64,000 nucleotides of DNA from the NCBI GenBank assembly GCA_963855995.1, contig OY979717.1, positions 61,844,243 through 61,908,242 of the forward strand, written 5' to 3'. This DNA comes from Muricea muricata. Lineage: Eukaryota; Cnidaria; Anthozoa; Malacalcyonacea; Plexauridae. Under the pieces are notes generated by a model that saw only the letters and a program-made list of their open reading frames with translations, was not told where the DNA came from and did not search any database. Both the position numbers and the translations under genes were made by a program. Below are positions 4,164 to 64,000 of this stretch, piece by piece; position 1 is the first letter of the stretch, and each line of letters starts with the position of its first letter.

Positions 4164-7100
4164 ATGGATTGGATACGAGCTCGTCCCTTTTTGGAAGAGT
4201 TAGTGAATCTGTTGACCTGTGCGATTTGGTAATATAAATATGATCGACTTTATATAGTCTCTCTAGATTTATGTCGCGCTATATAGTTGTATTTGCTGAC
4301 GAGTTTTTAAATAATTTTTCTGAAAAGTTCCTATTCTGATAAAATTATTTTTGTAGTAAAGGCTATCTGAAAGATCCATGCACCTTGGATAGCTGTGATC
4401 ACAATTTCTGCAGGTATACATTCATACCAGTACATTTATTTTATATATGTATCATTGCATATAAATGGTCAGACTGCAGAGTATGGCAAGTGCACACGCG
4501 AGATATTTTTGTTCAATGACTTTACACACTTGAAGTTTTTAACGAGAAAAACATCGAAACTTAATAGGTCTTTAAAAGTTTAGATAGAGTGACTTTGTTT
4601 TAGATTGTATATTAAGTTTTTATCAAGTATTGTGTAGGCATAGCTAACTCTACAAGAAGGCAGAAGATTCAAGAAAGCAAAACTTCTAGTCAATTATGGA
4701 GGGAAGTATGATATTGTAATTTAATTTACAATTATGTGGTCAATTGTCTCGAATGCACACTTGATATTGCAGTTGCTGACTTGCACACCTGGATTTTGTT
4801 TTGTACACTTGAGTTCTCGTCGAATTCTGCCATACTCTGCAGTCTGGTATGATGGGCTGACAAGTATAGTTCCAAGCTGATATGTGGCTCGCTCGTATAT
4901 TATTCATGTTGTAGTATCGTTTTTATTCATTAATGTTCAATAAATTGACAGTATAGCCTCGTTTTTGTGATTAAAATATATGCTTTTTATTATGTTATAC
5001 TAGGGATGCTGTCAAACACTGTTACAGTTATAATCATTAACTAAATGTGAACATAATCAAACTCATATGAAAAATTGAAACTACCTAGCGAAATTTAACG
5101 CACCCTGCGACATAACAGGCTTACAATCAACCTCTTAGTGTAACACCTCAAAATAAATATAAAAGGTTGAAAAGATTAAAACCCATCAAGTGGTCTTGAA
5201 AAACATGAATTTATCAAAATAGATTGTGCTCAGGATATTGGTTGTGCTTATCCTTTACATGGATCATTCCACAATTGCGCAAAGGATTGCAGCATGTACA
5301 TTTTCCCAGAATGCATGGCTGGTATCAAGTAGAAATTACTTAATAAAAATGACACAAGATCACCAAATGATGAGAAATTTTAGCACAATAAACAAATCTA
5401 CAAATATGATTTGTTTAGTCGTTGACACTTTAGATCTTCCTGATAATTTGTTACAATGAGCCAGGGGGTTGGGGAGAGGGGGCAGGGAATGGTTGTAGTA
5501 ACAATTGCTTCATGGATTAGTTGGAATCTGTGGTGTGCCAACATAATTTACATAACTGCTGTTATAAAACAGGTGAAATAGTAAATCAGATAGTGTCTAA
5601 TTATACTATTTGTACTTGAAAGAACATTGAAATAATGACCATAATAAACTCTTTAACCAGTACACAGCAAATTAAAAATGCACAAGTTGCAGCAAGTCTG
5701 CTCCATGCGTGTCACCTGGCAATCATCGATCCATTGTCAGGCCATGTTTGCATCACTAATTCCTGCAGCTTGATGAAATCAAATCTGAGCACTGCAGGTT
5801 GTAACCAGCTTGGTGCAAGTTGATTCTCAAGCCATTTTATTCACAAGTTTAATGCAAGTTGTCTAAACAATTTGCAGGAATGAAGTCGATCTGCAAATAT
5901 CAAGTTCCATCAAGTCTGATTTTCACAGACTTGATGAAACTTCATGACCAATTTGTATCAAGCTGGTAAAATCTACAACTTGCAACAAGTCTGTGGCATT
6001 TCTGGCTGAGTGTGTAGGCAACTTAGCTGTCAGTATATATAATTGTGAAATACAATGTACAAATATCATTGGCTATTGTATTAATTAATATCAGTTTTTA
6101 TTTACTGAAAATAGAAAATGTATTGTGGAAAGTTTGGGTAGTGAGTCAAAGTGTCCAGAATGTGGCTCATTTTCTTGGCTGAAAGATATAAGATTGAATC
6201 ATCAGTTGGCTGCAATTGTGAATATGATGATGACACTACAGTCATTCATTGGTATAAATATGGAAGGTTTGTTTAATTTTTATTAAGGTACAAGAATTAA
6301 GCTAGCATTATGTGCAAATTAAAATGTGATAAAATGAAATGTAAAGTCAGTCAGAAGAATTTAAAATGATACGAAATACCAAAAGTACAGTTCTTGATTA
6401 GTTTGGAAGGCCGTAGCAATAGTTTACATCAGAAATAAATACTTGTCTACTGTTTCCTCCCAATATGTTTTTATTATTTTATTCATGCAGTTTTTAAATA
6501 ACGATAGTAGTTACAGCTTCAGCATATAGTTTTATTCTTTGAACAACCCATACTTCACTATTATTCAACATGATGTCTAAGCTTATTCATTATTAATGAT
6601 AATTTTTCATTCATGCACAAAACTTATTTTGTTTCTATACCGTAGTTGAAAATGCTGAACCTCAAGTTGAAGATGAGTCTGGATTGTCAGAAACCTTTAC
6701 TTTTGCCTCTGATGAAGAAATGCCTTGGGAAAATTTTAATGAGAAAATTGTACCCGATCAAAGTCATGATGAACAGCAGGACTCATCATCTGAATCTGTC
6801 AGTATCATAAAACCTGGTGGCAATACCAAAGAATTTGAAACAAACCGAAAAACAGATGTCACAGTTCACGCTGACACTAAAGAATCTGACGGTGAAGAAC
6901 TTCACGTTAGTTCAGTAGATAACACAGATAACAAACAAAGGAATGTGAGAATTTCAACCTGCACAAAACACAACAAAAGACTGCAGCCACCAAGTGTCAC
7001 TACAAGTCGTACGGATACAGAGTCCCGGTTAACTCGCACTACTATCTCAGAAGCACTAAATGAAAGGACAAAAGTGAAAGAAAATGTGATTAACAGACGT

Positions 7101-10100
7101 GAAAAGATTACCAAACATCAAGGTGTTACACTCCAGAAGCATAATGAAGATACCAGAGAGGATAGTGATGATTTGGAACAAGAAGATAGAACTAGAAGAA
7201 AACCTGCAAACATTAGAAGAAACAAAAAGATGCGAAAACTACCACGTGAGACCGTACAAAGTAGTGTAGAATGCGACCGTGACGATGATGATGATTTGGA
7301 ACTAGAAGATAGGACTGGAAGAAAACCAGCGTCTATTGAAAAGAAAAAGATGAGAAAATCGCCAAGTGAAACAGTACAGAGTAGTGCGCAATCCGACAGC
7401 GAGCAGGAGAATTTGAAGCAAAATGGAACTGGAAGAAAACCAGTATCTATTAGAAGAAAGAGAAAGTTGAGAAAAGCACAAAGTAACACGGTACAGAGTA
7501 GTGTAGAATCCGACAATGAGGTTGATGATGATTTGGAACAAGAAGATATTACTGAAAGAAAACAAGCGTCTATTAGAAAGAAAAAGATGGGAAAATCACC
7601 AAGTGCGACGGTACAGGGTAGTGGAGAATGGGATTGTGATGATGATTTGGAACACGAAAATAGAAGTGGAAGAAAACCAGTGCCTACTAGAGACAAAAAG
7701 ATGAGAAAACCGCAAAGTGAAACAGTACAGAGTAGTGCGCAATCCGACAGCGAAGAGGATTTGGAACAAGGTAGAACTGGAAGAAAACCAGTGTCTATTA
7801 GAGAGAAAAAGATGCGAAAACCGCAAAGTGAAACAGTACAGAGTAGTGCGCAATCCGACAGCGAAGAGGATTTGGAACAAGATAGAACTGGAAGAAAACC
7901 AGTGTCTATTAGAGAGAAAAAGATGAGAAAACCGCAAAGTGAAACAGAACAGAGTAGTGCGCAATCCGACAGCGAGGAGGATTTGGAACAAGATAGAACA
8001 GGGACGAAACCAGTGTTTATTAAAAGAAAGAAAAGTATGGGAAAACCGCAAGGTGAGACGGTAAAGAGTAGTGTAGAATCCGTCAGTGAAGCAGACAACA
8101 TAAGAACAGCAAGTGCAAACATTAGACAACGTCGGAATTTAAGAAAATCAACTGCAGTCGCAGGCAATAAAAAGACGAACAAACAGGCAAGGGATGTGTC
8201 CCTGAGTGCAACAGAATTAAGTAAAAGTGACGCAAAGCACGATTCAGAAATAGTTGAAAATGAAATTCCGAAACGACATTGCCGCGAGGATACTGATAAT
8301 TTGGAACAAAATAGAGCAGGAAGAAAACCAGCGTCTATTGAAAAGAAAAAGATGAGAAAATCGCCAAGTGAAACAGAACAGAGTAGTGCGCAATCCGACA
8401 GCGAGGAGGAGAATTTGGAACAAAATAGAACTGGAAAAAAACCAGTGTCTATTAGAAGAAAGAAAAAGTTGAGAAAAACACAGAGTAACACGGTACAGAG
8501 TAGTGTAGAATCCGACAGAGAGGTTGATGATGATTTGGAACAAGAAGATATCACTGAAAGAAAACAAGCGTCTATTAGAAAGAAAAAGATGGGAAAATCA
8601 CCAAGTGCGACGGTACAGAGTAGTGGAGAATGGGATTGTGATGATGATTTGGAACAAGAAGATATCACTGAAAGAAAACCAGCGTCTATTAGAAAGAAAA
8701 AGATGAGAAAATCGCCAAGTGAAAAAGTACAGAATAGTGCGCAATCTGACAGCGAGCAGGAGAATTTGGAACAAAATAGAACTGGAAGAACACCAGTATC
8801 TATTAGAAGAAAGAGAAAGTTGAGAGAAGCACAAGGTAAGACGGTACAGAGTAGTGTAGAATCCGACAGTGAGGTTGAAGATGATTTGGATGATATTTCT
8901 GAAAGAAAACAAGCGTCTATTAGAAAGAAAAAGATAGCAAAGTCACCAAGTGCGATGGTACAGAGTAGTGGAGAATGCGACAGTGAAGCAGACAACATAA
9001 GAACAGCAAGTGCAAACATGAGGCAACGTCGGAATTTAAAAAAATCAGCTACAGTCGGAGGCAATAAAAAGACGAACAAGCAGGCAAGGGATGTGTACCT
9101 GAGTGCAACAGAGTTAAGTAAAAGTGACGCAAAGCACGATTCAGAAATAGCTGAAAATGAAATTCCGAAACGACATTGCCGCGAGGATGTAAGGAAATTG
9201 TCTTCAGTCAAAAGAAAGAAAAAGAAGACCATACAACGTAGCAGTAGTCGTAGAAAAGTGGACGCTAATATCGTAAAATCTGTTACTAGTACCGTAGCGA
9301 CCGAAGAAAAGAGTGTGAAACCACGTTCCAGTGCAGGAAAATCAACCACCGTCGTAGAAAACATAACAACAAAGCAGTGGCCAGTCTGGAGTAGCACTGG
9401 AGATTCCGACAACGAGACAAACGAAGAAGCTACAAATGTGATCCACACAAGAAAATCAGCCAGAGCAAACAATAAGTTACAGGTGAATACTGAAACAACC
9501 TCCGATTCTGAAGAAAACAATGTTAGTACAATAAAAGCAAGATTTACGAATGAGGATATTAACATAAAACATGATATTAACATAAAACAACGCTGGAATC
9601 TCAGGCAACCAAATACAGACAGAAAACGGACAAGTTTGATGTTACGCCCTACGTTCACGAAAGAAGAAAGCGATACAAAATCGATGGAAAATGAAGAAGA
9701 GGCAACGAAAACAGGGACTCTCCTTGAGCAAAATCCTCTTGCTCATGCTGTAAAACAAAGTAAGAGCGGCAGAAAGAATTCTTTTGAACAAGAGTCTGGT
9801 GCTAAAGCGAAACAAAGAAAATGTGGCGTCATTAAAAGTATGACAACGAAAATTATGGAAGATATGACCGTGGAACAGACACTAAAGTCAAGTGTCCAAG
9901 GACATCGCGATGCAACTGAAAGTGACCCGGACGGCATACAGAAATCAAATCGTAAAACGGCATTTTCGAAAATAGATATTGGAGCAGGACCGCCAGTCCA
10001 AAGACCGTCGAAACGTGCTACACAGAGAAAGAATTGCCAGAATGCGTCGCAAAATATTGTTGGTAATAAAATGTACTTTTTAAGGCATAAGTTGAATCCA

Positions 10101-13100
10101 ACTTCCAAATTGATTGATGTTCCTTTTGACTTTACACAACAAGAAGATCCATTTCACTTTAGCGGTACATCAGAAAAGGATAATAACCACTGTACTGATG
10201 AAAGTGATCATAATAATGATGGCACTGATCTGGATGATATACCTGATTATAATGATATCGATAATGATGATCATCACGATAATTATGATCATCACGATAA
10301 TGATGACGGTGGTTACGATTATGATGGTGATGATCATGGACAAAAAATATCAAAATCTTCCACGACTACATCAGTTCATGCTCGGAAATCAAAACGAGAG
10401 AAATCAAAACCACGCAATACGAGATCTTCCAAAATAAGATCGGCAAACGAGATGACAGAACAATTTACGAAGCTTAGAGGCAGACCTACAAAGAATCATG
10501 AATTCGAGAACGGTAACAACAACCTCAATCAGTCGTCGATGGTTGTCAACGACGAAAATGTTATACTCGACACTAAAAGAAGACGCGCACGAGGAAAAAA
10601 ATATAACATTCGACAATATTTAATCGCCGTTGATCCTACAGATACTTATGAAATTTCTTCAGATGATCGTGAGTAAACACTTTGTTTTTTTTTTCACGTG
10701 TTGTAATAGTGCAGTACGAACATTTTCTTAAAAGGTGGTCCGTTAAACAAGCAGAACAATTTTTAAACTTTTTTTGCTTAACAGAGGTAGAAAAGTTTTT
10801 TTCACTCTGGGATGCATGGGTTCAGTGAGATTGATTTATCAAATGTATTGATCAGACTGTATTAAATTGTATTCTCTGCAAAAATTTATATGTAATTATA
10901 ATAGTAGCACAGTTAATTTTGTTAATTGTCTGAAATGTTCTGCGATAATTGAAATCCCAAAAAAAAATGCTGGTACCTAGGTCCCCAGGATTCATTAATT
11001 TTTTAACCTCTCTAAGTTGACAATGTATTTATAGCGTTGAAGAAGACTTTAGCCCTGTCGGGACCGTCTACTGTAGATGCCTTTTAATAATTTTATTTTT
11101 TGTTTATTTCTACCACCAGCACCGCGAAAGAAATCTCGAAATTTATCGACATCATCGATTTTTCAAAATTCTCAGAACGCCATCCCTTTCTCTCAAACTT
11201 CGCATAATGTTGCCGAGTTGTCTCAGAAATCGAGAAATAAGAAAGGAGAGACGCCTTTACATCTAGCTGCGATTAAGGTGTATATTTAAAAATGCTTTTG
11301 GCCTACAAAAATTTACATCTAATTTTTCTGCTCTCCTTTCAACTGACTTTTTTTTTTTCTAGGGAGATGTAGTCTTGGCACAGAAACTTATCAGTGAAGG
11401 AGCAGATCCAAACATGAAAGATCATGCCGGATGGACCCCATTAGTAAGAAATATTTCCCTTTCAAGACTTTCTTTTTTTGAACACATTCATTGGCACATT
11501 GTGATTACAAAATGTTCATAAAAACATATGTCTACATTAGCTCATGGGTTAAATGATTTATCGAACATCTGAAGTTCGGTCTAAAATTCAAATAGAGAAG
11601 GCTAAAAATGTTTTGAGTGGCACAAAAAATCGTAAACGTTGTTCGCACATCGTTTGTTTTGAGCTTTTTCGGTGTACTGTATATGCAATGTCAATGCTAT
11701 ATATACAGGCGGTAAAATCACACATTACTGGTTCAGCCATTACATTTAAGGGGTACTTCGGCTTGAATAATTGCTATTATTGGCTATTTTAACTTGTGTG
11801 TGTTTATTGCAGCACGAAGCATGCAACCATGGTCATGTGGAGATCGTTAAGTTATTTTTAAACAATAACGCTTTAATAAATATTCCTGGATGTGATAATG
11901 ACACACCACTTCATGATGCGGTTGCAAATGGTCGTTTGAGAATTGTTAAACTTCTTGTCGCAAGAGGAGCTATTTTAACAGCCAGGTATACTTAATTTGT
12001 CCTGATAAATTTTTTTCTAGTTTTTCAATCCGATCTTGACCAGGGTTGTCCGTGAAATTGGTTACACTGTTAGTATAAGACCTATTATTTTAGGAGTTTT
12101 GATTGGTTAAGAGCTAAAGGTGAAATCGTCATATCCGCTTGGTGGTTGCCCAAATTTGGGATTGAAAATAAATACATGTATACGACATTATGAGTCATTT
12201 CGTCGTATATTGAAAACAAATATACATTTTGACTCGTTTCGTCGTATATTGAAACAAGATATGACGTCACGCTATAAATTATGCGGCTTTTGACTTACCT
12301 TGTAATCTGACAATTGTTTTAAGAATATTTTTTTCGTACTCTGATTGGCTTATTAAAGTTTCGAACAATTTCATGGTGTTCCATTATTAGCAGCTTGTGT
12401 CTTCTTGCTTACAAAACAAGCGTTTGAGCTTATAGTCATTTGTAACGATGGCTCTTGCGTTCCAGCACAACGTTTAACAGTGATATTTTCGTTAAATGTT
12501 TGACCCATATAGAAACAAACAAGGTTTATTACCAATGGATTATGCTGTAACAAAGGAGATGAAAGCTGCGCTGAATCCACTTGTTAAATCATCGAGTACA
12601 AAATCTGAAGGAAAAATTGAAATTTTAAAGGTACGTAGATTAAACGCCCTGTCACACTGTGCAATTTTTCATGCAACTTGCGATGCAATTCTACTCTTGG
12701 GAGGTTTAAAGTTGGCAAATACATGCTTCCATCACAGTTTGCCAAAATATTTTTAACATGCCAAACATTTGTCACAAATTTACATCTCTTAAGAGTAGAA
12801 TTGCGTTGCAAGTTGCAAGAAAAATTGCACTATGTGACAGGGCCGTAACGCCGAAGTGCATAATTATCAATACATTTTTCTGATTAGTTTTTTGTTATAC
12901 CTTGCTCCGATTCACTGACGTGCCATTTTTGGTTACCACGTCTTTGGATATTGTAGTGCGTGTTAGGAAACCCTGCATGCCGCAATTGCACGAATGTTTT
13001 CTACACAACCATTACAACACACAACCGTACAGTATTTTTCATTGCCAATACAAGTGTGTCAATGAAAATCACTCTTGGCTGGTGCTCCATCTTTCATCCA

Positions 13101-15925
13101 TTGATAAATGTTTTTGAAATATTGCACATTGTAGAGTTCGTTCAAGTTGTGCCGTGAATCACAAGTTATTTTGGGCACAGCAATTAAAACAAAGAACCAA
13201 GTAAGTTGTACTTTTTTCTGTTGTAAACAGAGGCGTAACTAGAACGATAATTTAGAGGCTGTTTATTCATATATTCGCGTTCAGCCCGACAAGTTTCTTT
13301 TGGAATCCAACCGATTTCAATAGAAATTCATCAGGCAGAACGCCAATATATGAATAAACACTCTCCCAATTAATGCTCTAGTTACGCCCGTGGTTGTGAC
13401 ATAACCTACTTCGCAGATCTACCCTCCCAGATGCACAGTGTGTTGTATCTGAGGTACCTAAATGATATGTTCTCTAATTGGCATTAGAGAGGTTCAGATT
13501 TGTCTTTCAATACCTCTACCGCTACCTCAATCTACCTTTCAGGCAATCAGATGTGCCGGACGTACCCGATTAACTAATAAAAATGGTTTAAAAATCGGGA
13601 AAATGTAGCAGTTGTGGTAGAGGAAGTCAAATCTAAACCTCTCTATTATCTGATTAGCAAGTTAATTTTATGTTTGAAATGTCTAGGTTTTATTGAAGAA
13701 ATGCGTCAGGCAGCTTGGTGGGACACTAGTTCATGAATTTGATGAATCAGGTTTGTACGAAAAATAAACCAAACCACACTCTAGCCCTGTTTCCACGTAG
13801 CTAGTTACGCACATAACTCCGAATGTCTTATCGCTTTCAGGTAATTCAACCTAACTGTCCGGCATAAAAAAATTAACATTGCCCGGTGATTGTACCAGAG
13901 TTTATAATACGTGGGAATAGGCTAAGCGGCGAAGATCTGCAATTCAAAATCGAACCTCTTCGGGAGTGTTATTTTATTTTGCTGTATTGGTTTTCCTAGA
14001 TTGTTTTAGTACATGTTACAGTACTTCGTTTCACGTGGGTCTAATAATTTTATAAATTATTACAGTACAAATGGAAGACTACTTTATTTGCTGGGGCAAC
14101 GTTCAAATTTACGTTGGGTTTATTTAAAACAAAAAGTTAGGAGACGCTTGCGTCTTCTGTTCGAGTTTGTTCTATAACTTGGAAAGTGGCGTACCGAGGC
14201 GACCACTTCAGCGGGTGTTCACATTTTATTGGCAAATTTTCCGACCAAGTTCAATAAATTTATCGACCGAGCACGTTTTTCCCTGCATATTTTCTGTTTT
14301 ACCAGCAATAGTTAGAGGTGCGACATGAATATGAGTGAGAGTTTCACTTGTGTAACATCAACTTGTATAATAAAATTCAACTGGAGCTTTATAATGTCCA
14401 TCAATCCCTCTCCCAAAATACAATAGCCTTTCGCCTTGTAACTGACATTACATTTCGTTTATCACAGTCACTCATGTTGTAACATCTGTAAATGAAAACG
14501 GTCATTGTCCTAGAACAATGAAATACTTGTGTGGAATCTTAGCTGGAAAATGGATAGTTAGTTTTGAATGTAAGTATCGTATCTCTTCGAATTCTCACAC
14601 TACTAAAGTTTGTGGTGTGCCAGGAAGATAAAATTTCTTGCAGTCATTTCTTAAATAAGTCTATAGATACATGGTATAAAATTCATACATAGTATCTCAG
14701 TTGAGCATGCGTCCCATGTGTTTCAGTTCAGTTCAAAGATAAAGGTCTTCCGCCACGGGCTATACTTGTTAAAGCTTCCCTCAACCTTTCCCTCAACTTT
14801 TTATGCTGTTTGACATTTTTTTGCAAATAATGGTCGCGCACACAATATCCCTATACACGCCAGACCTATTACAGTGTTTGTGGCCACTGAAGCGCTGGTA
14901 ATACAATGGTATTTTATTAGGGATTAAGGACAGTCTTCGACAGCGACAATGGTTGGATGAAGGTGTTTATGAAGTGGAAGGAACTGTACGAAAAACATGT
15001 GATGCGGCAAGGAAAGCTAGACTGAACATCTTACAACAGGTGTGAATCTTTAGTTATATTTTTGTGTCTATGTACATTTTTCTGTTTTCCGATTATACAA
15101 GGCCGTATCATGATGCGAGGACATTACTTTTGTTGACCGCTACACAAAAAAAGAACTGGGGCGTGCGTTGGTGATTTTTATTTTAAATCTGTATAGTTTA
15201 GGATAAACAGAACTTTTTGTCTTAATTATTCTTTTCTTTGAAATTTCGTATAAAACAAAGCACTTCATTACTGGACGCTAAAAAATACTGTTTTCTCATC
15301 CCATGTTTCGCTCAGCTTCGAGTCCGCAAACATCGACGGTCTCGGGTCAGAACATACTGTTTCCCTTGGGCTCACTAATCCAATGGGGTTTTTTTTGGCT
15401 GAGTTGTTGTCATTTTACTTAACTCTCATTGAATAAAAACAGGCTGCTAGCTGCTTTGCTCGACAAACACAAAAAGACAAAAATGTACAGCGCAATCGAG
15501 ATCCGGAATGAGGTAGGGTGAAAGATTATATTATAAGATTATATTTTGTATAGATGCCTCGTCTATTGGATGGTTGTTCATTTTTCCTCCGTGGTGTATT
15601 CATCCCTCCAACACCAAGTAAACAAGATCTTATCAAGCTTATTCAATTGGGCGGCGGGAAGTTGCTACAAAGAGAACCCAAAGTTGGAGATGAAGATCTG
15701 ACGTCCAGTCCTGTTGTGACGTCACTATCACGTGCACCAGAGGTGGCGTATCATGCTCCAGCTAACTCCTCCCTATCATATTGTACTGAGTTTATTTTAT
15801 TCGACCCACTATCACGTGATCAACACAAAGTTGTTAACTCCCCAATTCTACAGACCGCGCCTGTCACGTGGTTAATGGATTGTATATCATCGTTTCAACT
15901 CCTCGATATCCCGGACGTACAATAA
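4164..15925 (+). CDS. BARD1: BARD1, BRCA1-associated RING domain protein (13 exons, complete)
   Basis: Exons: 4164-4228, 4357-4413, 6115-6266, 6646-10668, 11120-11277, 11363-11443, 11813-11985, 12513-12630, 13135-13200, 13687-13750, 14468-14569, 14921-15039, 15554-15925. They chain in phase to 1849 codons plus stop. Residues 19-57 form a C3HC4 RING (C19, C22, C35, H37, C40, C43, C54, C57) followed by WLKDIRLNHQL. Exons 5-8 encode the ankyrin repeats (GETPLHLAAIKGD, DHAGWTPLHEACNHGH, NDTPLHDAVANGR, GLLPMDY). Exons 9-13 encode two BRCT repeats with the FEW and MPRLLDGC stretches typical of BARD1. BARD1 is the obligate partner of BRCA1 in an H2A ubiquitin ligase for homologous recombination. Human BARD1 has 777 residues; the excess is all in exon 4, whose domain-free linker is a long charged repeat. 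The start is placed 18 residues before the first RING Cys. Exon 8's acceptor (ATATAG) is the least certain junction. Confidence 0.95.
4414..6114. other. BARD1 intron 2
   Basis: No exon or clear transposon was seen. At about 5680-6005 the sequence is made of loosely repeated words such as AAGTTGCAGCAAGTCTG and GCAAGTTG, in both orientations. This resembles the CAACTTGT-rich stretch at 26800-27150. Small ORFs here have no recognisable similarity. Confidence 0.4.
7140..9195 (+). repeat. Tandem repeat array inside BARD1 exon 4 (about 38-residue unit)
   Basis: The exon repeats a unit of about 38 codons roughly 14 times. Consensus elements in order are: acidic DLEQ(D/E), RTGRKPVSIR, a basic KKKMRK, SPSETVQSS, then AQSDSE. 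Copies differ by substitutions and small indels but keep frame. A second-order duplication is also visible: the block from EADNIRTASAN to IPKRHCRED occurs at about 8085-8290 and again at about 8983-9190, each after a run of units. The protein segment (about residues 255-940) has alternating acidic and Lys/Arg patches, is Ser-rich, and should be disordered. Because the unit lacks stops on the other strand, a long antisense ORF appears there. Confidence 0.9.
10195..10345 (+). repeat. Asp/His/Asn-rich low-complexity run in BARD1 exon 4
   Basis: The codons read DDIPDYNDIDNDDHHDN, then YDHHDNDDGGYDYDGDDHG, derived from repeated GAT/CAT-type triplets (GATGATCATCAC). An RGRPTKN motif, close to an AT-hook core, follows at about 10478. 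The acidic run ends about 110 residues before the exon boundary. It could bind metal or histones, but composition alone does not show this. Confidence 0.7.
12646..12843. mobile_element. MITE with terminal inverted repeats GCCCTGTCACA
   Basis: Both ends carry a long inverted repeat (about 50 bp): GCCCTGTCACACTGTGCAAT at the left is matched in reverse at the right. The pairing extends inward through TGCAACTTGC and ATTCTACTCTT. The element is about 200 bp, non-coding, and sits in BARD1 intron 8, 15 bp after the exon. No convincing target duplication was seen. Confidence 0.75.
13232..13389. mobile_element. MITE with ends GGCGTAACTAGA
   Basis: GGCGTAACTAGA at the left is repeated inverted as TCTAGTTACGCC at the right. 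An inner pair of inverted words (ATTCATATATT / AATATATGAAT) is also present. It is about 158 bp, non-coding, in BARD1 intron 9, starting about 30 bp after the exon. Confidence 0.7.
13483..13647. mobile_element. MITE with ends ATTAGAGAGGTTCAGATTT
   Basis: The left arm ATTAGAGAGGTTCAGATTT with a following CCTCTACCGCTAC is mirrored at the right by GTAGCAGTTGTGGTAGAGG and AAATCTAAACCTCTCTATT. It has about 45-bp arms with a few mismatches. It lies in BARD1 intron 9 and ends about 40 bp before exon 10. Confidence 0.7.
13783..13923. mobile_element. MITE with ends AGCCTRTTYCCACGTA
   Basis: The left end AGCCCTGTTTCCACGTA is mirrored by TACGTGGGAATAGGCT at the right. The element is about 140 bp and non-coding, in BARD1 intron 10 close to exon 10. 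It is the fourth unrelated MITE within 1.3 kb. Confidence 0.65.
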
Positions 15926-18471: not shown

Positions 18472-21400
18472 TTATGACATATCTTTGAATAGACTCTTCA
18501 TCCATTCAAAATCTGGTTTATACGAAAGTTGGGCAGCCTCGTCTGGTTGACTATCTTTCGTTTTTTTCTTTTCGTCTACATTGTGACCTGACTCTGTCTG
18601 TAAACTGCTGTCCAGCGCATTCGAGCCTGCAGTTTCTTCGTCTGATGTGACTGCATCTTGACTGGTGTCCATGCCTACAGGAAGAAAAACCCCAGTTAAA
18701 GACGTGATAAAAATGCATTTGGCATGAAAATTATTCCAACATAATTATGACAATTTGTTGCAAGAAATCCTATACATTAAGATGTATGCAAATGCAAAGA
18801 CGAAAACTTTGATGGTTTTTAGTGACATATAAGAACAGATTGTAGCCGATATTTCCATGAAGTTCAATATTACGACCATAGTGTCTGCATGTTCTAAATT
18901 ATAACTTTTTTGTTTATCTTAATGCACAGTTCATTACTGGTCGCAAATAACATCCTAGATTGAAATCGCGATGTACACTGGTCTATTAATACCTGCTGAA
19001 TGTTTATGTGCTGCGCGTCAAATACTTAATGGACCAAAATGTAGATACACAAGTTCGGTGTGGATAGCCATGCAATAAATCATGAACTTATTACAAATCT
19101 CTCTATATAATTATGAATTAATTTTGCATAAGTTCAAGCAATGTTTGCAAAAAATATTGAAGTCAATGCAAACGGATGCACAAATGCAAACAATTTTGTA
19201 GTTTAAAGTTTAAAATTAATTGAATTGATTTTTGTCTTGACACCAATGTTGCGGCTGTCGATTTCAAAAGAAATTTAATATTTGAGCTTTTGTAATGTTT
19301 GTTTTAAAAACTTCATGGAGAAAACATATTCAATATATACTGTAACACTGATTAACATAAAATAACATGTTTCAAATGTGATTGTTACGCTACAGTTTTG
19401 GTAATGATGAAGCCATATGTGTCAGGGTTATGAACAGTCCACAAATTTTAATACGATGTTGCGATACAAAATTTGTATGAAAACCATACATGGAACAACT
19501 TGTAACAAATCTGTTCTGTTGAACAACCTTGTGCCAATGTCGGAGACAAATTAATTTGTGTAACTTGTGTATTGAGAAATAATAAAATAAGCATGCATAT
19601 ACATGATCGGAGAATGGTGATTCTGATATATTACTATCCAATATATCTCTATCATATGTTTCTGTCACATTACAGGGTTTTTATAACTTAGTCCAATTAA
19701 TTACCCTTTCTGACGACCACCATTTTGCTTATGTTTGAGACTATAAGCTATTGCTATCCTAGTCTCTATTCCCGTCAACTGTCAAAATTCCTTTCACTAG
19801 ACATGACGAGATGATTTTGGAATTTATGCTACTGAAATTCGTGAGTCAATTTAGTCCATTTCTTGGCGTTTTTTTAATATTTCATTTTTTCATATTTTAT
19901 TTTTTCAACTGTCGAACAAACATCCGAATGATTTCTATAGCTTACTGTCTTCTACTATTATTTTAAAGGCAATTACCTAAGCAAGTTCGTCCGGTAATCA
20001 GAAATAATTTAACGTCCGGCAGCTGTGTAAGTAGATGTCAATCAAATGTTAAAATTAAATGCGTACCTCCGCCGTAACTCCTAGAAACAATCTTTTAATG
20101 TTAGCTCAAGAAAGAATAAACGTACTTAAAAGATGTTTCTTTCTTCTCGTCCAACCTACCAAGTTGTTCTTGAAGTGTGTTTGGTGGTCCTTCTAGCACT
20201 AGCTGCACTCGTTTTGAACTACATGGCATGTGTTAATATTTGGAAAAATCCTTTGTTACGAACATGGCACAATATTTTTACAATGAATTTGATCATTATT
20301 GATCTCATAACTAGCGTGCTCAGTATGTCATTCACAATTCTAGTTTTGGCTTATGGCGAGTGGCCAATGAACCAATCAATGTGTAATTTTTCTGGCTACA
20401 TCAACGCCGTTGTTGCCGCGATTGGCATAAACACACTGGCGCTATTCAGTTTCTCACGCTATCAACTCTTTGCTCATCCATCGAAATATCTGACAATTTG
20501 GAACAGAAAAAGATGCGTACAAGCTATTGTTGCAGTTTGGATAGTCGCCTCCCTCGCTTGCTTGCCACCATTATTTGGTTGGGGAAATTACAAATTCTTA
20601 CAAAAAAATGCTGTATGTTTCCTGGAATTCACCGCAAGCAAAGGGTACTCTTCTTTCTATGTTTATGGCCTGCTTGCGCTTCCCCTAATTGTTTCAGTGG
20701 TGTATTTATTTAGACTATACATAGCACTGCGCACGAGGCGCCGAGTCAGTTCCCAAGGTTCGGACGCAGAAACGGCAAATGTAAAGTTTCGACAGACAAT
20801 TCGTGCTGCGAAGTCGCTCCTCATCCTTGCATTGGCGTTTATTCTCTGTTGGTTACCTGTGTTCATAATCTATGCTTTGGACGCTTCGGGTGTTTATTTA
20901 CCAAGAGGATGGTGTCTATTTTCAACACTGATGATTTATGTATTTAGTGTTCTTTTGCCGCTTATTTATACGGCTACAAGTTCTGTATTAAAAATCGACT
21001 GCTGTTCGGCCTGGCTTAGGAAACTCAAAACACAAAAAACACCGAGGACTTCCGTACAACCGGAACGGGACGACAGCTAATAGCCAGGAATAGGTCGTTG
21101 TGGTAACTATTGCGATCGCGCGGCATTCGTAAAAAATACGCATACTCAAGACTCTGATTTGTTAAAGAGAAAAAATGGAAATGAAAAATTTTGGTGGTGA
21201 GATAAGCTTATTTATACCTTAAATAAGTATAAAAATTGCTTTATGCTTTCCATTGAAAAGGAACTTTGTTTTTTCCATTCCATTCAGCAACTCTATCTCA
21301 GCAAACACTATTGTATGCTAAACATGACTATTGTATTTAGCCCCCTACTAAGAGTAAACACAAATTGATTGTAGGCCAAAGATTAACGTTTCTATACTGA

Positions 21401-24400
21401 CCTGCATCTTCATCCTCACTATCATCATTATTATCTTGTGCAAGAGCCTCACTAAATGCAAACAAAATCTAGTTATTTTAGTGCACGAACATAAAACAAA
21501 GGGACAAAAAATTTCATAGCATTAATCTATATGTTGCCCAAGAACGGAGATGTTTAGCAGTGAATATAATATTAGGAAATATAGCCACTAGGGAAGATTG
21601 GATAGTAGTGATCTATAAACGTTCTTCCCTACTCAATGATTAAGAAACTGTTCTTGTACGAGCCGAGAATGAGGCTATGCATGTAACAAAACGTTAAATA
21701 AACCTGAATATACCTGTCGGGTTCTTTGCTGATGAGCAAAGAGTGAAGGAAGTTTAAACATAAAGTTGTTACAGGTGGAAGCACATGTGACGGGGCGCTC
21801 AACATCTACAAAAAATATACACGCTATAACACACTAGACTAATACTTGACCTGAGTTGTTATAAAGAACATTAGAGTAGTTTTGCAGTGCCATCTCTCCC
21901 CATAGTCTTCAAAAGTTGTGAAAAGTTCAAAAAGGTTAAACTTTTATGAAACGCATAATACAGTAACGAAGTAAGAACAACCCAGTCAAATTTGTTGTTC
22001 TTAGAAGAACGACCAATCAACTATTTCGTGACCGCATTATTAGTGCGTGCCATTGAAGTATAACCTTCAAAACCGATGAGATTTAAGCGCGGGGGTGTAA
22101 GAAAAGAGTTGATCAGAATTAAATTCTAAGTCATGGATTTAATTCAGTTTAAATTTTATATTCAGCGTAGGTACTGTATGATAAGGACAATACGTCCAAC
22201 ATTTTGTGAAATGTATCAGTTGATAATCAATATAATCAATGAATTTTGTATGATTAGTGACTGTCTCACTGCTCAAAAACCTCGTGCAAGGCACGGGAAA
22301 TCGTGTTTCCGAGTTCTAGAAATCTATAATTTTCCCTGGGCAGCATGCAACCGGACCCCCTAACTGGTTTGTAGCGTCTCCACTCACGAAAACAGAGAAG
22401 TGCAAACATGACAAATACCTGACAAAAGACAATTTAATAATTTTGATTTTTAATTAACTGTTGTGTCAACAAGCACGTAAAATCATCCGCGTATTGAATT
22501 AGTTTTCATGTATATTCAAGCGACTTGTTTTATTTTATAGGAAAATGTGCAAATGGTCAGTAATTAATTAGTGTCTCGTGGCACTTGTCTTTCAAACTTT
22601 TAATCGTCTTTAAACTAACTTTCGCAAATTTTTTCCCAAAGTGTTAAGAATTGAGCATATTCTTTTCCTGGGTAATGCCAGAAGACAGGAGGTATGCTGT
22701 GATATAGCGACCATAAAGAAAATACTTTTATCTTGGCTTCATTATGACTCACAATGATACTGCGGTAAACCATTGAGAGCTTCGATAGAGCCTATTATAT
22801 AGAGAAAAATACAGGGGTGCGCGGAAATACCAGATTTATTTCGTGTGTTGAACATGATATCTCACGAGTGAGCGCAGCAAACGAGTGAGAAATATCATGT
22901 CCAGCACGAGAAATAAATCTGGTATTTCCGCGTACCCATGTATTTTACTGTTTATCGTAAACTACAGGCTTTCCACCAATATAAAACGTCCAGAAGCTAT
23001 GATTGGTGATTGTTTGAAAAGTGATAATTTTCACATGTGAAATTATCATAAATAATCTCACATGTGAGATTATCAGTTTTATCAGTGCCCGCAATCTTTA
23101 TAAAGCACTGTACTTTATATAATGAACATATTAAAACGATATCACTATAAATGCTAAATTATTTACTTTTTTGACAAGGCTAAATGCATGAGCACATATT
23201 ACTACACATAATATATTTTTCTGTATGAAGTTTCTTACCTCACGGACAACTTTTGAAGAGGTATTTTTATGAAAGGCTGTGGCATCGTCTGAAACATCTT
23301 CGGAAGACACTATAATGGGATTAAGAAGTATGGACTCAGAACAGTGACGGAGAGTAGCCAATCAAATTAACAGGTCAGTACTACTAAACATTCTTGAGAC
23401 ATATTATTTTACCATTGTCGGTGACGGCTCCAAAAACGCGGTGAAACTCAGATTCTTCCGCATTTGTGGTTGTTTCCTGTCAGGAAAAGTTTAATGATCC
23501 AAATTTTATCAAGGTACCGTACCCAGATACTTTACCATTAACGAACAAAGAATCTGATACACTCTCGTTGCTTTCCTAATAGCTATAGCTAATTTTACAG
23601 CTGCCTATTGCATATTAGTAGAATCATACTAGTATACTATTGCAAATGCTGTAATTTGATTGGTTACCCTACTCGCTATCTATTCCTCGATAGATAGCGA
23701 GTAGCGAAACAATCATCTTCCTATAGAGATTTCTTTTAAAAAATTTGCTTAAAAATCAAATTTTTTGTTGAATATTCCATGTTTGATCTTTGATTCTACT
23801 AAAACAATTAGACTACTCGCTCTCGATTTCTACGCGGTGATAGTCGATTCAGGCTTCGCCCTCATCAACTATCCCTGCATAGAAATCTCGAGCACGTAAT
23901 CTACTTGTTAACTATATATTTATTACCTTAAGCAGAAATATTTCCTCTGTTTCAACGTTTTCAATGGTATATAACACCTATATATAAATACAGTCATATT
24001 TAGTAAAACACTACAGTTTTGTTGATCCGTTTTTTGCTAAACTGTATTACATTTTGTAACTAACATTGTAACACTAACAGGTAACGATGAAATCGTCAAG
24101 TGGAGTTGTGACAGCATAGACAATCAAAAGAATGGACTGGAAACGCAAGCTAAAGCGTCAATGTTGCTGATGCGACATCCGTGATACGGCCTGATATGCT
24201 ATACTTCGGAACCCTGTAACTTCACTTTAAATATACTTCAGGACTTTCTATTTACATATTTTAAACAAGAACAGCAGTGTCTATGGAACTATCGACTTTT
24301 AAAATTCTTTATGGACATAACAAAGCTAAAACCCAACGCTGAATGTTTGCGTTCTTTTTTACTACAGAAATGTCGCCATTGTTGTTGTTGAAAAAGGTTT

Positions 24401-27400: not shown

Positions 27401-30400
27401 TCCTCATTGAGGAAACTTATCAAAACAACATGGAGTCTATTATTTGATAGAATTTATGTTGTCATCGTACACATGTTGTCCATTCTTACATTAAAACAGT
27501 AAGCGCCAAAGGCTGGTTATATCGTTATCTCACCGTTGCATTTCCTTATTAAACTTCCAAAATTTCAACCGATTTTCTGGCGTCATTTTACCGTCGTCTC
27601 GTCTTTCTACCTACGAAAAATAAAATAATATCCGTCACTCTTGTGCAAATCCCATGCCATAACCAAGTACATATAGAAGTAAATCAAATACTAATGAATC
27701 TTTTATTATTAATAATAATGTATTTAATACTCACAACAAACGTGTGAGTTTACACAATATCATTTGCATTAAGATTAATATATATCTATCTTACATACTT
27801 GGTTCCTAACAATTAATATGACAAAATATATTATATTACGTAATTTCTCAGGATAAGACTATCAAAATTTTTAAAATGACCATAGTACTATGTAATTATA
27901 TAAGATTAAAAAGACATCTGTTTAAGAAAACTTGCTTAAATCTTTCCGTTCGAATGTTTGGTAATTCGTAATCGTGGCCTCGATCCCGTAATTGTAAATT
28001 ACGTTTAGGAGGTAATAACGTATGTAATGCATGACTAGGGTTGGCAATAATTTTGTCCCACAGTTTCTTATCTTTCGTATTTATAATATCAACAATATGT
28101 ACTTTTTGGATGGAATATCCATACTTGAATGCTCGTTAGAACAATTTGTCAATTTGAATCAAATATTTGTTATAAGATGCACATCCCCAAACTTCTATTC
28201 CAAAAACCAAAGCAGAAACTATAAGGCTGTGGAAAAGTAATTCCAAGTCCTTTTTAGAAAAGCCATAATATTTGCAAACACGGAGAATATACATTCTACC
28301 ACCAGCTTTACTCATAATTTCATTAAAATGATTGTCCCAATTCCCAGGTTTCTCATGTAAAGTAACACCGAGTATCTTTAACCAACTTTTCCGAGTTGTC
28401 GTTGGTAACGGCTCAGGGAGTGGATATGTTACATTACCATGTGTAATCATCTCCCAGGTTTTCTTAAAATTTAATTCCATACGATTTCTACCAGTCCAGT
28501 CAACTATATTCTCTATTTCAATCACAGAGGTATCATTATCATTTGTAACTTTAACTCCAAGATTCAAGTCATCAGCAAATTTGACCAGGAGATTAGAGTC
28601 CAGTACAGTTTTAATATCATTTATCATAATTGAAAACAAGAGGGGTCCTAATACAGTCCCCTGAGGAACTCCACGATTAATAGGAAGATATTCACTTTTA
28701 ATACCATCGACGCAGACACGTTGACATCTATCCTGAAGGAAATTTATCATCCAATCACATAAGGATTAATGGGTAGCTTCTTTATTTTATCACATAGAAC
28801 ATCATGTGGCACTGAGTCGAAGGCCTTCTTGAAATCAAAAGAGAACACTCTTACCATTTTTGCACCGCGATCTAGCCATTCAAGCCAAGTGTGTTGGGCT
28901 TTAATCAGAGCTGTTGTTGAACTATGGTTTTCCCTATAGGCAAATTGATCTTTGTGGATTTCATTCTCCATCACTTGTGATAAACCATTTATGTATATTA
29001 TTCTTTCGAAGAGCCGCATTATTATGTTGGTTAAGGAAATGGGTTACGGTAGCTGACTGCATCCAGTTAAAGGAGAGACTTTCGGAAAGGGTAAAAGGTT
29101 TGCTAATTTCCACAAATCCGGAATGACGCCATTTTGGAGTGAAGTGTTAAAGATTGTTGTGATCACATGTGCAAGGTCGTACGCATAATCTCTCCAAAAC
29201 CAATATCGTAGATCCTCAGGTCCAGCTGCAGTTGGTTTTTGCTTGAGTAGCAAATTTACTACACTAAAGATAGATATTTTTGGAAGCCTGGTACCCTCAG
29301 GAATACTTAGGGGTACCGGAGCGGTGTAGCTGCTATCTGTATTAATACTCTGGAAGTACATGTTAATAACCTGAAGATCAAACAGAGTGCTTATGGAACT
29401 TCACTATTTGATCGGCCAGTTATTCCATTTACCACCGACCACCATCTTTTCGATCCACATGACTGACTCCTATAATTTTGATTAACTGTCTTTAATTGAT
29501 TTTTCCGTACAAGTTGATTTATTTTTTCCTGTAGACGGTGACTAGCTTCACTGTCATTCCTCTTTATTGCTTTCTTTCTCTGCTTCAGTAGGTGTTTAAT
29601 GATAGGAGAAAGGAAGGGGGGATCTCTATTTGAAATACGCACTTTAATAATTGGAAAGCATTCATTAAATAATGGCAATACTTTCTCATAGAAACGAGCT
29701 ATCATTTCATTTGGACATTTTTCATCGTTAATAATAGAATCCAACTGGCAATTCTCGATCTTTTTTAACATTTCCAATTTGTTGTGATCTCTACAATCAC
29801 GGAACTCCACCGTTTTCTTGAAGACTTTCCTAATTGAACAGGTTTAACTAACACTGCTAAATGGTCAGATCGAACAAGACTCTTTATAGCTCTCACTTTA
29901 GACCATAATTGAGGAAAGTTAGTTATGAATACATCAAGTGCTCTAACACCTCGAGTTGGAATTTTGACGTTCTGTGCAAGAGAATGTTGATTTAATAGAC
30001 TACTTAAATCCAGCTGGTTTACATCACCTGCGATAATTAATCTGGCATTGGGAATGGATGACAATAGACGTTCAACAGCATCAATTAGGTAGTCCAGGAA
30101 ATCCCCGGGTGGATACACGGATGAAGGAGGGTGATACACAGCAGCAACGTAATATTCAGAATTAGGTGTAAAAATTTTGGCCCACAAACATTCATAAGGA
30201 TTTTGAAAGCCATACAACCGTTCTAATTTCCAATCTTTTCTACAGATAACAGCCACTCCTCCTCCCTGTCGGTTCTCTCTATCTTTGCGTATCATAGAAA
30301 ACTCATTTGGACACACCAAATGGCTAGAAATAGCTGGTTTAAGCCATGTCTCTGTAATTATGCACAAATCCACGTTATTATTCCTGAGTTCCAAATGAAG

Positions 30401-33400
30401 TGCAGCAGATGCGTCCGGTTTAACTAAAGATCTAGCATTTAAAACTAAACCAGTAGGAACAATGCGACGATGATTTTCTACACTAGACAATGATTTTCTA
30501 CATTATAGGATTACATTCACTTTTAAACTTGCAAGCCTATAAATTTACCATATATTACCAACTTAGATACCAATTCAATTTAAATACATATACAATTATG
30601 CAGATGTGCATACTAAAGATCTTCTGACTTTTTAAACAAGGAGAACGCCTAATGGTTTGAATGCTGAAATAAAACCTACTACAAGCCTTGAACGTCACAC
30701 AAAGTGAAAATGAGAATTCATGAATGTGACTGGTTCACAAATTAGCCAAGTATAGAAACTTACAGTTGCAAGCCAACTGCCATCATTTGAAAAAGATATT
30801 TGCTCCACGACTGTCATCTTTAGTGGTTCATTTCTCGGTTTGGAAACGTAGTTTTGTCTCACTATTTCCAACTAAAAAATTGAAATAAATCATTAAATAA
30901 ATCAAACTCTCATGCTGCAAATTCATTAAAGTACAAAACCATATTTATTTTGTGAATTTCTATCACATGGCGGTTACTTTGAGTGCCCAGTTTTCTCGTA
31001 CAATAGTGTTTCTCCGTTTTGCTCGTCTTGTCAGATAAATGTGGCTAACTATAATAGTAAACTTTAGTCTTGTATTTCGTCTAAAAAGAGCAGCTAAAAG
31101 TTTGACTTACTGTAAATGCTAAACTATCCTTATCCGGCTTATAAAACTGCAAGTTACCATCTTTGTTGTTGAGTACCAAAGATTTACTTAAGGGATCTGA
31201 GACAAGGCCAGTATACACTTGATTGGCTACAAGATATGAATTTCACACAACGATATTGGTTAAGTTGACATATAAAATACCAACAATAGAGGCTAACTGA
31301 AAGGCAATATGTCAAGACTTTTGTTTTCTCTTATCCGTCAAGCAACTAAATATGATCACCAAACTGAAAAGCTCTTAATCTGACGCTTCTGTTATCCCTG
31401 TGAGTGAAAGGAACGTCATACTTACCACGCGCAAGACCTTGAACAACATTCACAACAGAAAGATCCACAGCAGACACTAAGTTGATCACTAAGTAAAACA
31501 ATCACAATGCATGTTTCACAACGCACGCAAACAGTTTTTTCAGTATCATATTTTTGGCGGTGACCATCGCAGTGTAATTCATCTTGAAAAATATCATAAT
31601 AAAAGGTCTAATCGAACGTTTGAATACGTAACCATGAGGGAGACACTTTCCTACACGTGATGATCTGCAATGCAATCAATTAGCAGCAAAAACATCACAT
31701 TAGTAACGTCATTTTGTTTTCACAGCTACGTAATTAAACATGTTTTCAAACATAAATTACATAGAGAATAGTACACGCACATGGGTGCGCGAAAATACCA
31801 GATTTATTTCGAGTGTTGAACATGATAAGAAAAATCATGTTCAACACGAGAAATGAACTTGAACAAGAAAAATCATGTTTAACACAAGAAATAAATCTGG
31901 TATTTCCACGCACCCATGTGTTTTTCTGTTTATGGTATAAACTACAGGTTTTCCACCAATATAAAATGTCCAGAAGCTATGATTGGTCATTGGTTGAAAA
32001 GCGATAATTTTCACATGTGAAATTATCATAAATAATCTCGAAAAACGTCTTACCATTATTAGTGTGACATAAAGCAATCACTGTATCATCTTGGTTATTA
32101 CAAATATGAGCTATAGGTGCCCCAAGACGAGGCTTAAACTGCTTATGACTCGTATCAACCTGCCAGAAAACCAAAACTGCTTCTTCCCCTCCAGAATATA
32201 AATAAGCCCCTGAAAATATAAGTAATGTAGTTCTAGATTTGGTATCAATTAGTTAATCAGACTGTTTACTAAGGAGAAGAAAAGCTGAAATGTCACACAT
32301 TTCAACTTATCTTGTCATTCGCATACAAGTACGTAAATTTAAACTCAAACGACTTTACTTTGGTGTAGCTTTGGTATTTTGTAATCACAAGAAAAAACCC
32401 ACTTTAGCTCTACCGTTAAATTCAACTTTTCATTCGTCTCTTAACCGTTATTAAAGGCAAAAGCATTCGACCTGCATGTTATTTTTTTAAATTTATATTT
32501 CCGCTCATTTATCTTTTACATACTTCGCCTTGAACAATAACAAAAAAAGCAGTTTACCATAACGAAAAATAGCAGTATGTTTATTTTATTACAATGCATT
32601 GCAGGAATCAAGCAAAAACGACTGAAAAAGATGTCAAAACACCCATAAACTCTAACAAAACAAAGAAAATACATGTAACCTCCTCTCAACGAAAATTGTA
32701 AAGATATAATCGAGGAAATTTTTGACATTGATGTTCCACAAATGTTTATCTGTGTTAAATATCATTCGTGTCGTCCGTTGTCCAGTCTTGTAGATAAAAT
32801 GTGTTGTTAAATGTACAATAATAGATTATTTTAGGAGCCACTGCAAGGAGCAATTGACCGTGACAAAAAGATGGCGAATATAAATTTCCCAGAATGCATT
32901 CCAGCCGAAAATTGTTTCAAAAAGCAAATTGAAGTTCAAAAGGTAATGTTTGAATTGCCTATTGAATTACTCATGCAATAAACAAACATAATTTATAGAC
33001 GATCAAAAGTTTGTCTTAGGTTCTACTTAAATATATCTGAACATGGTTAGGTACAACGACTACATACCATCATTACTGAACTTCAAACTTGCAACTGCGT
33101 GAGCATGCCAATGAAGCTTTGTACAAACTGGTTTTGAATCAACTTCAAGATTCCTCCTAAAATTGAAAAAGCAGTGTATGAACGATTACCCAGCCGCCGC
33201 ATTACATTTCTTATATCTTAATCAAATCGAATCAATGCATACATGCGTACCATATCAAAATTTTGCCATTGTCATGTCCAGTTGCCACGCAGGTATCAAA
33301 TGGATGAAATGCGACTGATGTGAGAGGAGCCTTGCAATAATGCCTGTTAAAAAAACACAAATTTGAGCTATAAAGTAGCTAACCTTTTTTGTTTAATTAC

Positions 33401-45067: not shown

Positions 45068-64000
<18,933 letters not shown>

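Follow-up and report, generated by a model that had tools for sequence, protein, structure and literature searches.

A predicted BARD1 gene of Muricea muricata with a 4-kb exon and a long, tandemly repeated charged linker

Here we describe a predicted BARD1 gene from the cnidarian Muricea muricata in which the linker between the RING and the ankyrin repeats is approximately 4.5 times as long as that of the structurally solved BARD1 chain 8off_Ea, apparently because a charged unit of around 38 residues was copied many times over within a single exon. BARD1 has to span the distance between its RING, whose target is histone H2A, and an ankyrin–BRCT module that reads histone marks. We consider it likely that in-frame tandem growth of an already disordered, change-tolerant linker produced a longer polyampholyte tether. 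The gene lies in a window of 64,000 nucleotides (assembly GCA_963855995.1, contig OY979717.1, positions 61,844,243 to 61,908,242 of the forward strand); positions below are those of this window.

The model has 13 exons (Table 1), the coding sequence running through RING, ankyrin and BRCT to a stop codon, with consistent phases and a single frame of 1849 residues; a TGA lies in frame 9 nt 5′ of the ATG at 4164. Exon borders were set by eye using homology and splice consensus, so the occurrence of GT–AG in 12 of 12 introns is partly by construction, and the independent support for the model is the agreement of phases and the lack of internal stops. Exon 4, between the RING exons and the ankyrin/BRCT exons, has exact borders (ccgtag before TTGAAAATG at 6646; GATGATC before gtgagt at 10668). 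It comprises 1340 whole codons, and its phases (1 in, 1 out) match those of both flanking exons, to which it is joined in the predicted splicing.

Table 1 Features of the predicted BARD1 gene in the window
Feature	Positions	Strand	Remarks
Exon 1	4164..4228	+	ATG, first RING Cys pair (CAIC); phase-2 donor; RING match to 1jm7_B
Exon 2	4357..4413	+	RING (CDHNFC)
Exon 3	6115..6266	+	Remainder of RING and stretch behind it
Exon 4 (giant)	6646..10668	+	4023 nt; nearly whole RING–ankyrin linker; splice sites, phases 1/1, no stop
Exon 5	11120..11277	+	Linker end, SQ sites at aa 1450, 1457, 1467; ankyrin domain start
Exon 6	11363..11443	+	Ankyrin
Exon 7	11813..11985	+	Ankyrin; HEACNHGH identical to BARD1 structures
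Exon 8	12513..12630	+	Ankyrin domain end and ankyrin–BRCT linker
Exon 9	13135..13200	+	BRCT1 start
Exon 10	13687..13750	+	BRCT1
Exon 11	14468..14569	+	BRCT1
Exon 12	14921..15039	+	BRCT1 end and inter-BRCT stretch
Exon 13	15554..15925	+	BRCT2 and stop codon; matched once in a search of the whole genome
Repeat array A, U01–U08	7194..8111	+	Basic head, acidic tail; U08 end fixed at 37 aa by rule
Repeat array B, U09–U14	8319..9011	+	U14 end fixed at 37 aa by rule
Spacer copy 1	8025..8291	+	267 nt, starts within U08; 91% identical to 8922–9188
Spacer copy 2	8922..9188	+	Starts within U14
RGRP core	10476..10487 (aa 1369–1372)	+	AT-hook-like by pattern only; single occurrence
FxxA motif	6696..6707 (aa 109–112)	+	Pattern; lead for RAD51 binding only; within 20 codons of exon 4 start

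Judged from its sequence, the locus is the BARD1 orthologue, with complete folded parts. The RING matched zf-RING_6 (Pfam; 6.2e-13, 48.9 bits, cut-off 35), the best among 13 families, and its best PDB matches, 1jm7_B (2e-14) and 7jzv_B, are both BARD1. All zinc ligands are present (C19, C22, C35, H37, C40, C43, C54 and C57, on what we take to be the RING pattern). Residues 2–373 of a 377-residue ankyrin–BRCT query aligned with BARD1 chains 7e8i_K, 7lyc_N and 8off_Ea (E of around 1e-78); a BARD1-type RING is followed by ankyrin repeats and then tandem BRCT, collinear with known BARD1. A BRCT family search of the genome gave nine matches, among which two of the four examined presumably resemble FCP1 and XRCC1; BARD1’s own BRCT exons were absent from them, so this search cannot show that BRCA1 is absent. 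A let-7 search, run with no positive control, gave no match.

Between the end of the RING match and the start of the ankyrin match lie around 1384 residues (1383 as aa 92–1474), compared with around 309 in 8off_Ea by the same measure (RING match end 113, ankyrin match start 423), a departure in a feature that does not define BARD1. According to one paper, the human disordered region is only around 150 residues. The preliminary description of this DNA had named the gene BARD1 with complete RING, ankyrin and BRCT parts, had joined the RING and ankyrin exons through 6646–10668 and had put the linker at about 1380 residues, and our analysis agrees with it on each point; its figure of about 370 for the human linker is somewhat high by the RING-to-ankyrin measure taken on 8off_Ea. 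On exon 4, Pfam listed no family above cut-off (the sole entry, PurS, scored 17.7 bits against a cut-off of 22.2), and a PDB search with the exon found no relative (best E 0.76). The linker is probably disordered on the basis of composition: order-promoting residues make up 0.155 of the array and 0.360 of ankyrin–BRCT. An AlphaFold run on a three-unit block (4 rows; pLDDT 60, pTM 0.13) is no evidence of disorder, because a single-sequence BRCT2 control failed as well (pLDDT 33).

The array contains 14 units of 37–41 residues, which together with two copied spacers occupy aa 275–939, or 48% of the linker. Units U09–U11 are copies of U02–U04 (94–95% DNA identity), start-to-start spacings are multiples of 3 in 11 of the 11 listed, and overlapping array rows scored 1003, 851 and 631 in TRF. 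A search of the 453-Mb genome with the repeat DNA, which skips very common words, returned five matches, all within exon 4 (window 7183–8986); a transposon- or satellite-derived repeat was rejected, as this search found no copies elsewhere. We also rejected an antisense gene in an open run of 874 codons (7118–9742): recoding that kept the repeat gave a mean run of 397 codons and at least 874 in 1.4% of cases, compared with a mean of 290 and 0 of 300 for plain recoding. Tandem-repeat segments are commonly open in alternative frames, according to PMC2805694.

Were exon 4 skipped in part or whole, split by cryptic introns or partly an assembly error in its repeat, the protein would have a more ordinary linker. 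Two donor-like strings do lie within the exon (8051 AGGTGAG and 8834 AGGTAAG) and some adjacent units are close (U06 and U07 differ at 4 sites). We nevertheless regard this explanation as improbable. The 4023 nt are in frame with both neighbours and contain no stop where 6.4 are expected (P 0.0013), although this test is biased and not selection-free because exon 4 was first noticed for its open frame. Codon usage correlates between the folded exons and the linker outside the array (r 0.74; r 0.53 for the array), units differ by around one fifth on average (pooled pS 0.30, pN 0.20) and the contig that carries the locus is 71.7 Mb in length.

Every unit combines a basic head (+6 to +9) with an acidic tail (−2 to −9). 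Charge patterning of the array exceeds that of 300 shuffles (z 12.4), its charge autocorrelation has peaks at lags 37–38 and troughs at 18–19, and the linker outside the array is likewise patterned (z 8.3). A tandem repeat of about 38 residues that fills about half of the linker with alternating acidic and basic patches had been described from the letters alone and is borne out here.

Between units, a codon model gave an omega of 0.69; omega 1 was not rejected and 0.3 was (lnL −777.1 free, −778.3 at omega 1 with kappa 1.6, and −788.1 at omega 0.3 with kappa 2). Among 134 inferred changes the synonymous share was 0.216 (neutral expectation, 0.240), and charge class was kept at 60 of 105 (0.571 versus 0.529, P 0.21, non-significant). 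The units appear to diverge nearly neutrally at the residue level while the frame is kept open, with weak constraint. The unit copies are close, which leaves little time to reveal constraint, and an omega of 0.69 permits some; constraint would likewise produce a uniform charge layout across units.

These results bear on the idea that selection has made the array a multivalent tether to DNA or nucleosomes, in which weakly binding heads (for example, TGRKPVSIREKKMRK, AT-hook-like) retain BRCA1–BARD1 on chromatin through avidity. We consider this unlikely. The basic heads, GRKP at six places in the array, the RGRP core and the DNA binding reported for the human exon-4 disordered region (PMC10639053) are consistent with it; however, Pfam at E up to 0.1 listed no AT-hook on exon 4, and neither residues nor charge classes show measurable constraint between units. 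The preliminary description had proposed a multivalent DNA or chromatin tether; the recurrent basic heads and the motifs would allow for one. A copy-number-tunable selected chromatin tether, in which the 14 heads grip DNA or nucleosomes and the 14 tails, in part potential CK2 substrates, release or recruit partners, seems quite unlikely; if it were true, unit number would set the reach and residence of BRCA1–BARD1 on chromatin, possibly varying among individuals.

CK2-like acidic Ser sites are common (strict pattern, 20 versus 4.3 in shuffles), counts that are not independent events because the units are copies, and the array has fewer ATM/ATR-type SQ/TQ sites than its shuffles (1 versus 8.4); the kinase-target idea of the preliminary description fits the former sites and not the latter. 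That the array serves as a docking platform switched by phosphorylation, similar to the MDC1 SDT repeats, with CK2-phosphorylated SDSE tails binding NBS1 or other BRCT or FHA proteins, is highly improbable. SDSE occurs in 7 of 14 units, beside two further S-D/E-T-D/E sites (both SETE), and an SDTE motif of PHRF1 is required for NBS1 binding (PMC4650548). Yet the other seven units lack SDSE, no MDC1-type S-D-T-D/E repeat was found in the array, and copying inflates motif counts. Of the 9 motifs, 7 have Ser at the second site, whereas the NBS1 FHA domain is described as binding pSer-Asp-pThr (PMC8079451), although a BRCT site may accept pSer.

The FxxA motif is a lead only, because one was observed and 0.7 would be expected from shuffles of the linker outside the array, and a PDB search with the FxxA stretch found no BARD1. 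Residues 133–136 of human BARD1 presumably read FxxA too. The human variant D135N, which lies in this region, weakens RAD51 binding (PMC8088670).

In-frame growth of a tolerant linker is the explanation that we prefer. A unit of around 38 residues would have been duplicated repeatedly, in frame, within one internal exon, and further in-frame duplications would have involved a three-unit block and stretches of around 0.9–1.0 kb. The linker would keep its reported human role as a flexible tether joining two chromatin-reading ends; its positive charge would contact DNA, as also reported for the human region, with longer reach, more basic patches and probably many weak DNA-contact patches. The exact unit sequence and unit number may matter little. 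In human saturation editing, exon 4 encodes a disordered domain and loss of function was found in 11 of 1802 missense variants of disordered regions, so the human tether tolerates most changes. Tandem repeats and disorder are reported to be more abundant in long internal exons, and most fixed indels to preserve the frame and to encode disorder (PMC12457776). Long internal exons that gain disordered tandem repeats are a known kind, of which the BARD1 case is a variant. No repeat-expanded BARD1 linker was found in the literature searched, which does not prove absence, and a pattern scan of viral contigs for relatives gave five pattern matches, none confirmed. A natural BARD1 tether of this size puts to an extreme test how much length and charge the complex can take, and could serve directly as a construct to ask whether the linker supplies basic charge rather than sequence.

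Like human BARD1 and 8off_Ea, the predicted protein has the order RING, linker, ankyrin and tandem BRCT with alignable folded domains, and, as in human, where exon 4 encodes the disordered linker, nearly the whole linker lies in exon 4; unlike 8off_Ea, its far longer linker carries a tandem charged repeat. There are 13 coding exons here and 11 exons in human; an extra intron here probably splits the counterpart of human exon 4. In-frame tandem-repeat growth and disorder-type composition are shared with long disordered-repeat internal exons (PMC12457776, PMC9825244), whereas 4023 nt exceeds the fits of up to 840 nt given there (PMC12457776) and the gene is a core repair gene. Similarly, tandem-repeat proteins of Nematostella carry repeats that are specific to the lineage, lie in disordered segments and frequently leave more than one frame open, but their basic units are 5–20 residues in length, as against 37–41 here (PMC2805694). 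With its acidic Ser sites of CK2 type, this break-repair protein recalls the SDT repeats of MDC1 and the SDTE motif of PHRF1; here, by contrast, Ser replaces Thr at +2 in most motifs, and the sites are set in an alternating basic and acidic array.

The forward strand yields a complete BARD1 gene model (4164–15925; the window lies at C2:61844243–61908242 of a 453-Mb, 74-contig genome), with 13 coding exons whose borders were set using homology and splice consensus. All 12 introns are GT–AG with mutually consistent phases, the model is a single open frame of 1,849 residues, and an in-frame TGA lies 9 nt upstream of the ATG. Exon 4 spans 6646–10668, to the base as the preliminary description had placed it, and makes up 72% of the coding sequence. 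The last exon has one match in a search of the whole genome.

The N-terminal part scores best in Pfam as a BARD1-type RING (6.2e-13, over the cut-off) and among structures with BARD1 RINGs (1jm7_B, 2e-14). Alignments of the C-terminal part with the BARD1 chains 7e8i_K (2.4e-78), 7lyc_N (2.9e-78) and 8off_Ea (3.4e-76) begin at the first ankyrin repeat and stop just short of the end of the second BRCT domain. Three ankyrin or designed ankyrin chains total higher scores through numerous repeat matches, but their best stretches are confined to query residues 1–111 and therefore do not cover the BRCT half. For exon 4, no Pfam family passed the cut-off and the PDB search gave no relative, the top hits being two bacterial-regulator chains (E values of 0.76 and 0.8).

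Exon 4 carries 14 tandem units (U01–U14) of 37–41 residues, each with a basic head (net charge of +6 to +9 over the first 16 residues) and an acidic tail (−2 to −9). U09–U11 copy U02–U04 at 94–95% DNA identity, and U12–U14 are a looser copy of the same pattern (79% without gaps; 91% in a second comparison). Offsets between copies of the three-unit blocks and spacers are 1,002, 897 and 351 nt, each a whole number of codons. The sequence shows the growth history of the repeat. A satellite or transposon trapped in the gene looks unlikely, since all five genome matches to the repeat DNA, in a search that passes over very common words, fall within exon 4. On the reverse strand, the array is covered by an open stretch of 874 codons (7118–9742, −), read as a by-product of repeat composition, as 1.4% of repeat-keeping recodings reach that length.

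Features of the window and of the BARD1 model (aa, residues of the model)
Feature	Position	Strand	Remark
Array A, U01–U08	7194–8111	+	U08 end set by rule
Array B, U09–U14	8319–9011	+	U14 end set by rule
267-nt spacer after each array	8025–8291; 8922–9188	+	mutual identity 91%
FxxA	aa 109–112		outside array; n = 1
RGRP	aa 1369		outside array; n = 1
Three SQ sites	aa 1450–1467		outside array, ahead of ankyrins
Open stretch	668–868	−	weak MIT-domain match under Pfam cut-off
Rhodopsin-type receptor, single exon	20130–21080	+	7tm_1, 1.6e-35
SNORA16	46782–46924; 54520–54661; 57931–58073; 22624–22796	−	Rfam RF00190
LINE-type retroelement pieces	28136–30502; 38563–40938	−; +	endonuclease and reverse transcriptase matches
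Long TA dinucleotide arrays	59912–60033; 61047–61165; 61702–61881		94–98% matches, 60–90 copies apiece

Both the lengths of the units and their spacings are divisible by three. Some gaps of 1 and 4 nt in a nucleotide-only alignment must therefore compensate, the unit lengths being whole codons. On the unit tree, 134 inferred changes would have left 6.4 stops without purging and none is present (P = 0.0013, softened because exon 4 was chosen for being open). Residue-level divergence between units is close to neutral. The synonymous share of changes is 0.216 (0.240 expected), 60 of 105 replacements preserve charge class (expected 0.529, P = 0.21), the pooled pairwise ratio is 0.66, and in two long duplicated stretches silent changes are not in excess (5 of 25, with 6.3 expected under neutrality, and 4 of 19, with 4.8 expected). 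The codon model gives an omega of 0.69 (lnL −777.1), against −778.3 for omega 1 (kappa fixed at 1.6) and −788.1 for omega 0.3 (kappa fixed at 2); the estimate of 0.69 leaves room for some constraint. The near-neutral tests thus argue against tight constraint on unit sequence and for selection chiefly for an open, charged and flexible frame.

The array holds 20 instances of a strict CK2-like pattern (4.3 in shuffles), SDSE in 7 of 14 units, GRKP at six places and SQ/TQ at one (8.4 in shuffles); as unit copies are not independent, these counts mainly reflect the content of the ancestral unit. Past the array but still within exon 4, a more hydrophobic island (aa 1234–1263, MYFLRHKLNPTSKLIDVPFDFTQQEDPFHF), followed by a D/H/N-rich run, is distinct by eye from the remaining linker and might be a binding motif.

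Elsewhere in the window, the four SNORA16 (H/ACA snoRNA) matches score 35.6–47.3 bits and share about 140 strongly conserved nt with diverging flanks; they may therefore be a snoRNA series present in several copies, perhaps carried by the introns of a reverse-strand host gene. The receptor appears opsin-like by eye, but its seventh helix shows no obvious lysine for retinal. The LINE-type pieces are split across several frames, and the open stretch with the MIT-domain match may be one exon of an adjacent gene.

Human BARD1 exon 4 is entered in phase 1, and its phase-0 end falls inside the first ankyrin repeat. Exons 4 and 5 together have the same outer phases here, and the giant exon therefore looks like an enlarged form of the orthologous exon that has an additional intron close to its end. 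From RING match end to ankyrin match start the linker measures about 1,384 residues, against about 309 in 8off_Ea between the same match ends; one study puts the human disordered region at about 150 residues (PMC10639053).

The human exon-4 region has been reported to bind DNA, to promote end resection and to tolerate most missense changes and in-frame deletions; the authors of that work infer a requirement for charge and flexibility. PMC10639053 describes BRCA1–BARD1 on neighbouring nucleosomes, with a flexible connection and with DNA contact between the RING and ankyrin domains; PMC12457776 describes growth by in-frame duplication as a general tendency of long internal exons. A linker that requires mainly charge and slack can lengthen in this way harmlessly. 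For the present linker we infer disorder, reach and DNA contact. Our literature search found no report combining BARD1 with long-exon repeat growth; BARD1 is known, as is repeat growth in long exons. Because such a linker can grow harmlessly, we read the feature as a putative enlarged tether of the same kind as the human BARD1 linker, one that probably reaches further and contacts DNA more.
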